Positions 14,563 through 38,796 of a DNA stretch of 64,000 nt are shown here, piece by piece (the stretch's first letter is position 1; each line of letters begins with the position of its first letter). Below the pieces are notes generated by a model. That model did no database searches and had not been told where the DNA came from. It saw only the letters and a list, made by a program, of their open reading frames with translations. The position numbers and the translations under genes were made by a program. The stretch is from Cystobasidiopsis lactophilus. Lineage: Eukaryota; Basidiomycota; Agaricostilbomycetes; Agaricostilbales; Chionosphaeraceae. Location: the NCBI GenBank assembly GCA_001599975.1, contig BCIO01000001.1, forward strand, positions 4,833,631-4,897,630, in the 5' to 3' direction.

Positions 14563-17463
<2,901 letters not shown>

Positions 17464-34223: not shown

Positions 34224-37200
34224 TCATTTGGCCGCCACCTTTGCGCCCTTCTCCAACAAATCGTTCACCCCACCCGTCGGTCCTTCGCCATCCAGATCCA
34301 GTCGACCAGACATGAGCTGTACGAGCGCTTCCAACCGACGCCACCACTCGTTCTTGCCCCTCCGCTGCTTCATATCGGCCGCCGCTTCCATCTCTTTCAG
34401 GTCGACAAAGCGCAAGTCGGCGCCTTGGATGACGACAACAGCCATGTCGTGAGGCTCCTTCTGCTGCACCTGACCTTTGCCGCTCCCGCCAGCGTGCAAG
34501 ACGGGGAAGGTCTCGAGGCCGGAGCCGTGGCGTTCCAAGAACTGGACGGCGCGAATGGCCAAACGAGTGGCTCGTGTCCGGTCTCGGGGCGTAGGAACAC
34601 CACCTTGAAGGGTGTGACCAAGCTTGACGTTGCGGGCGTCGAAGATGTCGCCGCCCTCGTCCGAGAGGATGTCGGTGAGCACATCGGTCGTGTAAACTTT
34701 GGAGGCCTTTTCGCTGCGGATGACAAGGCGGCCTTCGCTTTTGCCCTTGGCGTCGGCTGAGTAGCGCTGCTTGAGGAAGCGAACGTCGTTGGCCACCATT
34801 TCGAGCGACATCCCAGTCTCGGGAATGTAGACGACCAGCGCTCCAGAAGCCAGAGCGCCAAGCGTTGCGATGTAGCCGCATGTCTGTAGGGGTGACATGA
34901 CTCCTTAGCTTGCTCGAACTGCAGTGAGGTGCATCAACCCTACCCCGCCTTGGCATTCGATGACGAAAACTCGGTTTCTTGAGGCGGAAGCGCTCTGCTT
35001 GATGGCGTCGCAGTCTGTTTGGGCGTAATCGCATCAAAAGGCTGAGAACGGGAGGCTTAAAACGAGAACGTTACGCACTCTCAACCAGCACATTGATGGA
35101 CGTGTCGGAACCCAACGACCATTCAGAAAGCGGCACGTTGTTGCTGATCTGTTCTCGATACAAAGTGAACCTATCAGCTTGCTCCATTTGATGAGAGCAT
35201 GTCTACGAACAGTAGCGGGGATGTGGATCATGGGAATCTTGAAGGCCTTATAGGTCTGCCTGGCCTTTTGGAGGATGAGCAAGCTGCTCATGGCCTCAAA
35301 GCCGCCAATGATGAGCAAGCTGTCGATTTTGTACTTCTTGAACTGGTGCGCCACGCCCTCGAGATCGAGGTCGGGCAGCTTGCGGTTGGTGCCCAGCTCT
35401 GAGCCGCCGCGGGTCGTCCACTCGTCTACGTGCAGCCAGGAGAGCTCGGACACATGGTCGTCAAGCAGGCCGCCCCACGAGTTGTAAATGCCGAGCGGAG
35501 TGTGCCCGCGAGCCAAGCAGTACTGAACCGCCGTTCGAGTGGCAGTGTTCATTCCTCCTGCTGGTGCTCCGACACTGTGGACACACATCAAAGAATATGA
35601 GGATAAAGCAAAGCCATAAGCTCAGCGAAAACACCCACTGAATGATGCCGACGATGAGCCGTTGGCTTTCGGGCAGCTTGAGGCTGTCATCCAAAGTGCT
35701 GGTCGCCCTGAAAGCGGTGAGGCAGTCGGAAAACTCCGAGTCCCTCAAGCTGAGCGCTTTGGCAAAGTCCTTGGCCTCGATAGCCTTGGTGACCTCTTGC
35801 GTGAGGGCGACAGCGTCCATCAAGGGTTTCCGAGTGACCTTGTTCTCCTCGATGCCGATGACTGGGGATGGATCGCCGGGTTTGGAAGATAGAAGGGCTT
35901 CAACGGCCTCGACACCTTGGAGGGTGGCGAGCAGGCGGTCGAAAGCGCACGGCCGACCACCGCGCTGAACGTGACCCAAGGTGGTCACTCGGGTGTCGAG
36001 CTTGAGCTGGCCAGAGAGCACTTCCTTGATCATGTCGGGCGTGATGGGCTTGAGGTTTTTGTCCGCCGCGCCCTCGGCCACGATGACAATGTTCTTGCGC
36101 TTGCCCATCGCTCGGTGCTGTGGTTGGGGCAAGAACGACCAAAACTCAGCTATCTGATTCGGTGTCTGGTGGTAAAGCCTTGGCTCACCCTCTGAATGAC
36201 ATCGCACATCTCCTGGGCCCAGTCATCTGAAGTCGGTGGGCTTTCAGGGACGAACAAAAAATCTGCTCCCGTGCTGTGTAATGACAACCCAGTATCAGCA
36301 TCTGAATCAAGACTGATAGAGAACGGCCAGGATAACGAACCTGATAGCGGCCATGACAGCGAGCCAGCCACAGTGGCGGCCCATGACCTCGACGACAAAG
36401 GCGCGCGAGTGGGAGGAAGCGGTGGAGGAAATGGAGTCGACGGCGTCGCAGATGCGGTGCAGGGCGGTCGAGGCGCCAATGGTCAAGTCGGTGCCCGACA
36501 TGTCGTTGTCGATGCTGCCCACCGCTGTGCGTTCAAGATGTCAAGTTCCTACTCAATTTGGTGACACGCTCAAAGGCTCAACGCACTCTGTTTGATGGCG
36601 CCGGGATTCGCATCAGAACCGTGGCAATGACCCAGGTACGGAAGGGCAACTCACGCCTGCAATGTTCAAGGTGGAGTACTTGTCGGCGGTGGCCTGGTCA
36701 ATTCTGCCGTCCTTGACGAGCGCCTTGAGGTGATCGGGCCACTCTGCCCTGAGCTTGTCCGCGCCCGTCAAGCTGCCGTCGCCACCGCAGACGACCAGGG
36801 CGTCAATGCCATGTTTGACCAAGTTGTAGGCCGCCTTCGTCCTGCCCTCAAACTCCCTGAACTCGGCGGACCGGGCGGTGCCAATCAGCGTCCCGCCAGC
36901 CTGCAAAAAGCCCCTGACGTCGTCCCAGCCGACCTGGATGATGTGGCGGCCCTTGAGAGCGACGCCGCCCTCGCCGTCTTTGAGCATCTCGCCCTCGCCG
37001 TACGTGGCCAGGAAGCGGGTCGAGGTGTGGGTGGTCGTGCCCAGCGCCTTGCTGCCGGACGACTTGAACTGGGCCACGTTGTTGCTGGACGAGGCCGACG
37101 TTGACGCAGCGGCGGCCGAGGTGTTGCCTTGGATCAAACCTTCCCAGCCCTCGCGCACGATGAACGTCTCGCAGCCCCGGTTCAGGCCCATTCGCACTAC

Positions 37201-37425
37201 AGCGCGCACACAGGCTGCATCCAACCACGATGAGCAGGGGCCCATCAAAGCGAGGGCGAGCCATCTATACCGCTCATGCCAGCTGCATCTCTGGTTTGGA
37301 CGCCAAGGCTCAGCGCTGCACTCTGTGACACCCACTGGGAACTGCGCTCACCCTCCACTGGTCAACACAGCCAATCTGCGCGGGGTGGCACTGGCCGGAG
37401 CAGGCTCAGTCGGTTCCAGCTCCAT
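34224..37425 (-). CDS. PFK1: ATP-dependent 6-phosphofructokinase, two-domain fungal type
   Basis: Phosphorylates fructose-6-phosphate in glycolysis. Exons in transcript order: 37425-37352, 37290-37271, 37214-36655, 36587 alone, 36524-36341, 36273-36189, 36117-35639, 35574-35211, 35148-35079, 35014-34944, 34883-34224, 855 residues. Domain one: [31 protein letters not shown], the catalytic [15 protein letters not shown] and [10 protein letters not shown]. Domain two: [19 protein letters not shown] and IECQGG. The model only stays in frame if the single base at 36587 is an exon. That exon and the next one together form Thr219 and give NIAG-T-VGSIDND, exactly the family spacing. A short 20-nt exon also lies inside the first ATP-binding loop. 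The symbol refers to the family, not to a particular yeast subunit. Confidence 0.92.
36587..36587 (-). other. Candidate single-nucleotide exon in phosphofructokinase
   Basis: Upstream exon ends GGC at 36655 (phase 0) before a strong GTGAGT donor. The downstream exon begins CG-GTG at 36524 after CGCACAG and needs phase 1. A direct join shifts frame. Between them lies AAACAG, then A, then GTGCGT at 36590-36581. Treating that A as an exon gives two normal introns (36654-36588, 67 nt; 36586-36525, 62 nt), restores frame and gives family-length NIAGTVGSIDND. The alternative, a GC donor one codon earlier, would remove a conserved Gly. Confidence 0.7.
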
Positions 37426-37981: not shown

Positions 37982-38796
37982 CACGCCACCAACATCGAGG
38001 CGTGGCAACCTCAAACAGATGCCATCCTCGCCTTGCTCTACCCGGACCACCTCCTAGACCTGGACGCCGACGAGCCAGAGCGGCAACTAGAAGGCCGACA
38101 GCAAGTACTGGCCTCCACCAGCTCCGTCGAGCTGTTCGAAACCTTGGCCAAGCCGCGCATCAGCTCGACGACGGTCACCTGGAAGCGCTCAAAGGCGCGC
38201 AAGTTCCACCTCCAGTCCCTCGGCATCCACGTCGACTTNAANGAGCCGNCNCCTTTGTCCCAGTCCACCTCCTCGGCCGTGGACACCCTCGAACCTNATG
38301 GCCGGCCCAGCTTGCCTGGCATCAAGACGAACGTCTCGAAAGCCAGCTCCCCAGCTTCGGCGCCCGTGCCACTGACCAACCAAGCCGCTCTAGTGATTTC
38401 AATATCCCGCGCTCCCACGCCGCTCAGCCCACCGCCGCTGGACTGCCGGAAAGTGGAAGCGTTGCTGGCGTGGAGCAAGGATGCGCTAGCAGGCGAGAGC
38501 GTCCAGACGCTGGAGGAGCTGCAGGAAAGCTTGGTCGAGGCAGTCAGTAATGTCCGCGAGGCTTTAACATATGCGGTCGAGAAGCGGGAGAAGCTCAAGG
38601 GCGACGGCGAGAGGTACGACCAAATGATCCAGGTGTGTCTCCCTTGACCTTCCTTTGGCGTTCCATTGTGATCTGATGCTCATAAGGTGATGCTTAGACC
38701 ATAGCCTTTCCTATCATCTAGTTCTAATTGAATTCAATCCTTTTCGGTCAAAAGATGTTCGTGCAGCACATGTATGCCCAGATTCAAAAGCCATAG
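37956..38796 (+). CDS. Unknown protein, 5' end unresolved, contains ambiguous bases
   Basis: A readable frame runs from about 37982 to 38632 and splices (phase 0) to a last exon 38755-38796. It has no in-frame ATG before a stop at 37946, so the start lies in an upstream exon. Sequence such as WQPQTDAILALLYPDHLLDL and SSTTVTWKRSKARKFHLQSL looks conserved, and the C-terminal half (VEALLAWSKDALAGESVQTL, VREALTYAVEKREKLKGDG) is helical. I do not recognise the family. Five ambiguous bases (38239, 38242, 38249, 38251, 38297) obscure the middle. Its stop codon overlaps the 3' end of the gene on the other strand. Confidence 0.55.
38239..38297. other. Ambiguous bases (N)
   Basis: Five isolated N positions at 38239, 38242, 38249, 38251 and 38297, all within the coding exon of the unknown gene. 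They do not change frame, so they look like unresolved base calls rather than a gap. Confidence 0.95.

Follow-up and report, generated by a model that had tools for sequence, protein, structure and literature searches.

A predicted single-nucleotide exon in the phosphofructokinase gene of the basidiomycete Cystobasidiopsis lactophilus

The APC11 gene of Arabidopsis contains a single-nucleotide exon, the base A, located 333 nt into a 422-nt stretch (PMC4674806), and both APC11 and VPS55 of plants are described as carrying such exons (PMC8831610). For the plant exons, both reports propose that the introns are removed sequentially (PMC4674806, PMC8831610). CYP621A of Fusarium harbors a one-base exon within a double intron of 139 nt in F. 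graminearum, which its authors call the first for a fungal gene (PMC12940212). In addition, a one-base exon is described in the placozoan mitochondrial cox1 gene (PMC5436844), and stwintrons are short introns in direct contact that are spliced consecutively, as the PFK introns discussed below would be (PMC5639578).

Here we analyse a one-base exon, A36587, predicted in the phosphofructokinase (PFK) gene of C. lactophilus. Like the exons of APC11 and VPS55, it is a single frame-needed base between AG and GT, bordered by nuclear GT-AG introns for which sequential removal is proposed, and it shares with APC11 the base A. The APC11 exon was proven with cDNA and constructs, whereas the PFK exon is predicted from genomic sequence. 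The plant exons have flanking introns of differing size, while that of PFK lies between short fungal introns in a glycolytic gene. CYP621A resembles PFK in being fungal, in being masked as one double-length intron (139 versus 130 nt) and in restoring a residue of a conserved motif. Its base is G in the middle of a Gly codon, whereas that of PFK is A at the first position of a Thr codon; moreover, the CYP621A exon belongs to the Ascomycota, is conserved in many orthologues and is seen in RNA reads (PMC12940212). The PFK exon, in contrast, lies in a basidiomycete gene of central metabolism, and its genome has another probable case. Stwintrons keep nothing between their introns, whereas PFK would keep one base (PMC5639578). 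Placozoan cox1 shares the exon size, but is apparently mitochondrial and not nuclear spliceosomal as in PFK (PMC5436844). The PFK exon would join a very rare class already known from plants and Fusarium. The original prediction had called one-base exons very rarely documented and pointed to a single plant case; the rarity stands, whereas the count does not, with more than one plant gene and also Fusarium on record. No nuclear single-base exon from a basidiomycete was found in the literature searched, which includes few subscription papers.

The window (the whole 64,000-nt stretch of DNA analysed; C1:4833631-4897630) belongs to a genome of 22.1 Mb in 8 contigs and contains a complete PFK gene on the minus strand (37425..34224). 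The coding sequence consists of 11 parts (Table 1), which sum to 2,568 nt encoding 855 aa and a stop, with no internal stops, and all ten introns are GT-AG introns of 56 to 71 nt. A genome search with the PF00365 profile gives five exon matches, every one at this locus, and a second PFK locus was not found by this search of the whole 22.1 Mb; with a single locus found, a broken reading frame would be costly. Among the matches listed, the top protein match is from Rhodotorula toruloides (65% identity), and 22 of the first 23 carry names that we take to be those of Pucciniomycotina, the remaining one being nameless; on these matches the species probably belongs to that group. Five N bases are present in the window, each single, at 38239-38297 upstream of the gene, and none lies within it. 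The shortness of coding part 2 is one more sign of dense short introns.

Table 1. Features of the PFK locus (positions in the window)
Feature	Position	Strand	Remarks
Whole coding region	34224..37425	-	joined reading frame; all PF00365 matches here
Coding part 1	37425-37352	-	
Coding part 2	37290-37271	-	20 nt; introns of 61 and 56 nt either side
Coding part 3	37214-36655	-	ends ...AACATTGCAGGC, phase 0
Upstream intron	36588..36654	-	67 nt, GTGAGT...AAACAG; branch-like CTGAT 25 nt from end
Coding part 4	36587	-	predicted single-nucleotide exon A, base 1 of ACG Thr codon
Downstream intron	36525..36586	-	62 nt, GTGCGT...GCACAG; branch-like TTGAC 16 nt from end
Coding part 5	36524-36341	-	starts CG/GTGGGCAGC
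Coding part 6	36273-36189	-	
Coding part 7	36117-35639	-	
Coding part 8	35574-35211	-	
Coding part 9	35148-35079	-	
Coding part 10	35014-34944	-	
Coding part 11	34883-34224	-	
Rival GC donor CAG/GCGTGA	36654..36656	-	overlaps the GT donor
Rival GT donor TGA/GTTGCC	36645..36650	-	1.3rd percentile

Part 3 closes in phase 0 with the codon GGC at 36655, and the donor GTGAGT comes next at 36654. Part 5 opens with CG/GTG at 36524 after CACAG and requires one preceding base. A36587 sits between ATCAAACAG and GTGCGT, reading AAACAG/A/GTGCGT, with AG before it and GT after it on the coding strand. When this base is omitted, GGC meets CGGTG and the frame is lost; when it is included, 855 aa are read unbroken. 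The protein then reads NIAG-T-VGSIDND, A36587 contributing to the single T residue. All 120 PFK homologues listed (8,000 scored) have a single residue separating G from VGSIDND, and the base is required for the family's residue count as well as for the frame. The residue at this position is Leu in 119 of the listed homologues and Val in one; Thr is thus not the usual one. The CG start of part 5 permits only Ser, Pro, Thr or Ala here, and the PDB alignments show Thr in 3o8o_B and Ala in 3opy_B at the same position. All four PDB alignments shown are gap-free through the NIAG-T-VGSIDND stretch. The coordinates and frame of the one-base exon are confirmed on the minus strand, and the original prediction proved accurate in placing the phase-0 GGC and CG/GTG, in finding the 11-part coding sequence divisible by three and in recognizing the residue count as that of other phosphofructokinases. 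Its description of A36587 as lying exactly between a good acceptor and a good donor, with introns of normal length on both sides, is likewise borne out by the statistics below.

Homology-derived intron lengths were taken from the gaps between contiguous pairs of exon matches in five Pfam families, giving 73 values. The rows entered number 47 of 48 for PF00071, 37 for PF00118, 25 for PF00012, 16 for PF00063 and 28 for PF00225; the PF00071 row left out overlaps another in a different frame, and PF00069, with 143 rows, is not part of the table. The median is 62 nt and the 5th to 95th percentile range is 54-79 nt, one value of 28 being an alignment-edge artefact. Three of the 73 exceed 90: a real intron of 98 nt, an in-frame insertion (120) and a value of 130 that conceals a small exon flanked by introns of 71 and 59 nt. 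With the two non-introns removed, none of the 71 remaining lengths reaches 100 nt. The 151 gene-finder introns include none of 120-140 nt and 22 of at least 100 nt, some of the latter probably being fused-gene artefacts. A lone PFK intron of 126-132 nt would fall outside the usual range of this genome, while a pair of 67 and 62 nt would be typical.

Splice sites were ranked against 151 reliable introns outside the PFK gene. Among these introns, the donor at 36654 and the acceptor at 36588 lie at the 58.9th and 47.7th percentiles, and the donor at 36586 and the acceptor at 36525 at the 72.2nd and 88.1st. Both introns flanking A36587 are normal for the genome in their sites and length. When the 130-nt region is shuffled 20,000 times with dinucleotides preserved, an AG-N-GT flanked by two introns of 46-81 nt turns up in 2,357 of the shuffles, and by itself the motif would be weak evidence. 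Requiring both sites to exceed the 5th percentile of real sites leaves 277 of the 20,000, and an arrangement as good as the real one occurs in three, or in eight when middle exons of 1, 4, 7, 10 or 13 nt are permitted (cut-offs rounded very slightly higher than the real scores). The real DNA, 264 kb made up of the window and a further 200 kb and read on both strands, has 1,570 AG-N-GT sites; one is this good, and it is the PFK site itself. The branch motif YTRAY is present in 187 of 355 introns versus 98 after shuffling, and for the PFK introns the branch-motif test is only supportive. Separately, the end of the upstream intron (36604-36583) and a stretch of part 10 (35011-34990) have 18 of 22 bases the same, both encoding AIKQSA; the likeness was noticed post hoc, is equalled in 2 of 200 block shuffles and is possibly due to chance.

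A gene finder blind to proteins, combining a simple coding model with a splice-site model, was trained on 264 kb of the genome. Its training was seeded by eight PFK introns, excluding both in question; later rounds used its own predictions, about 490 introns with the two PFK ones among them. A first training, which had too small an intron penalty and put 4,913 introns into 4 'genes', was rejected. The version with a higher penalty still fused adjacent genes, which was largely fixed by a 200-nt intron limit and the admission of GC donors. The gene finder recovered PFK parts 4 to 11, the A exon among them; it started part 3 too late and missed parts 1-2. The higher-penalty run carried the PFK prediction on into the neighbouring gene; once GC donors were admitted at a prior of 1.5%, the A exon was kept and the end of the gene was correct. 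For the margin, the site models were retrained on a set of 449 introns that excluded PFK and Rho, both of which stayed in the models for coding and length. Masking the donor at 36586 lowers the score by 8.5 nats. The last round of the higher-penalty run contains two internal exons of 3 nt or less among 430, both of one base. Other tiny exons predicted in a later run (3, 3 and 4 nt) each adjoin one or two introns above 100 nt and are probably artefacts. Frame, residue count, site and length statistics and the protein-blind gene finder all support the one-base exon, which is very probably the correct reading.

One-intron ALTERNATIVES were enumerated around the junction with GT, GC or AT donors and AG or AC acceptors. 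The enumeration gives 15 in-frame stop-free joins, only two of which combine an AG acceptor with the motif to within one residue. Splicing at a GC donor, a possibility raised by the original prediction, would remove one GC-AG intron of 132 nt from the donor at 36656 and dispense with the one-base exon. The join is in frame and free of stops, GC-AG introns seem to be present in the genome (AT/GCAAGT in a Rho3-like gene and AG/GCGAGT in a Rab-like gene), and it is the second choice of the gene finder. It nevertheless stays 8.5 nats lower with the 1.5% prior for GC donors, drops the residue that all 120 listed homologues keep, and implies an intron longer than all 71 homology-defined ones. In addition, GCGTGA departs from the consensus at +4 and +6, unlike the two other GC donors, and ranks below all 151 introns in a matrix trained on GT donors. 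Lacking both an otherwise strong consensus and a family-fitting product, this intron is highly unlikely. A single intron of 126 nt from the GT donor at 36650, giving NIAG-VT-VGSIDND, is less credible still and hardly deserves weight: its frame is open and its dinucleotides are canonical, but the donor has a very low rank and lies four bases below a strong GTGAGT, the intron is too long, and the added residue is found in none of the 120 listed homologues.

The same frame problem in PFK would be produced by an assembly lacking one base in an adjoining exon, or by a real frameshift of the strain, with a single intron of about 130 nt, and the five N bases of the window lie near the gene. Such an error leaves without account that the best AG-N-GT of 264 kb falls exactly where two introns of typical length result, and it implies an intron of unusual length; moreover, the rest of PFK is intact, no second locus was found by the profile search, and no N lies within the gene. 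We regard a missing base as improbable, to about the same degree as the GC-AG intron. A stwintron, in which a nested intron is removed, a splice site is rebuilt and the whole stretch is then removed, would also involve adjoining short introns spliced consecutively, and stwintrons are reported from fungi (PMC5639578). In a stwintron everything between the outer exons is removed. Whole removal of the 130 nt between GGC and CGG, another outcome foreseen by the original prediction, breaks the PFK frame, which can be kept only if 1 nt, or 1 nt more than a multiple of three, stays in the mRNA; a stwintron is exceedingly improbable here.

It is highly likely that this basidiomycete PFK gene is functional and that A36587 serves it as a constitutive exon of one nucleotide, and we infer that the exon is used in the cell, that this use is constitutive and that its introns are spliced sequentially. 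Two ordinary short GT-AG introns one base apart would each be recognised via intron definition. Two spliceosomes should not fit on inner sites one base apart; without simultaneous use of these sites, the introns would be removed in sequence. If the upstream intron left first, GGCA/GTGCGT would remain as donor; if the downstream intron left first, AAACAG/ACGGTG would remain as acceptor. Good sites would persist in both intermediates, so that either order of removal may be workable. The mature mRNA would read GGC-ACG-GTG and give full-length PFK.

A second one-base exon is predicted in the same genome, the base C at C1:1001269 (minus strand), with introns of 56 and 64 nt. It lies in a Rho3-like GTPase gene (C1:1001553-1000377), hand-joined from ten parts to 224 aa with the C-terminus CFSF, and one intron of this gene is GC-AG (AT/GCAAGT). 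Many of the listed homologues of this Rho-family gene are named Rho3. The C completes TAC for the switch-I tyrosine in FSYV-Y-EPTVFE, and without it the join reads TAG. The stretch aligns gap-free to both RHO1 chains shown. Among 120 listed Rho homologues, 118 match F..xYxPTVF with Tyr, another reads VYEPTIF (119 in total), and one has no match. The sites of this exon rank at 34, 23, 32 and 32%, lower than those of PFK, and its gene-finder margin of 3.1 nats is also smaller. Thirteen in-frame single-intron joins exist in this gene, the best-keeping GT-AG join still being two residues short. CTAAC lies 14 nt before the end of the upstream intron, and a pattern search finds no YTRAY in the downstream intron. 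On the evidence of the gene finder and homology, C1:1001269 is a probable second single-nucleotide exon.

Two one-base exons were found in 264 kb, one of them in 200 kb chosen regardless of the finding. Scaled to 22 Mb, this gives a number on the order of a hundred, with Poisson bounds of about 3 to about 600, an estimate resting on two cases of which the PFK one was the starting point of the analysis. Further one-base exons were sought in six Pfam families, in 14 stretches where successive exon matches lie far apart. All 14 of these gaps in conserved genes can be explained without a one-base exon, evidence against a very high rate. Twelve of the stretches join to a sensible protein with 22 ordinary introns of 53-98 nt and exons down to 8 nt, and in two (L026 and L032) a single frame stays open across the gap. 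That single-nucleotide exons form a recurrent class in this genome, rather than freaks, is a tentative and somewhat doubtful proposal. If it is true, one-base exons would mark the gain of a short intron one base from an older intron, and later loss of one partner would leave an intron seemingly slid by a single base.

Other very short exons were observed in the genome. An Hsp70 gene (PF00012) in the window has consecutive exons of 24 and 10 nt (14753-14776 and 14850-14859) with introns of 54, 73 and 58 nt. In a Rab-like gene (L036; C2:2392380-2392760), a GC-AG intron of 70 nt (GCGAGT) is followed by the 8-nt exon ACTTCAAG, and the join gives GIDFKIRTIEL.

PFK is a classic control point of glycolysis. 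Skipping the one-base exon of what is apparently the sole PFK should destroy the enzyme, and if the gene is spliced as predicted, splicing across one base must reach the accuracy that a gene of central metabolism demands. The PFK exon would be a small natural system for testing sequential splicing by intron definition. The second case in the same genome raises the interest of the PFK exon, and one-base exons may be less freakish than thought. Together, the PFK and Rho3-like cases suggest that ordinary annotation may overlook many one-base exons in genomes whose introns are short and dense.
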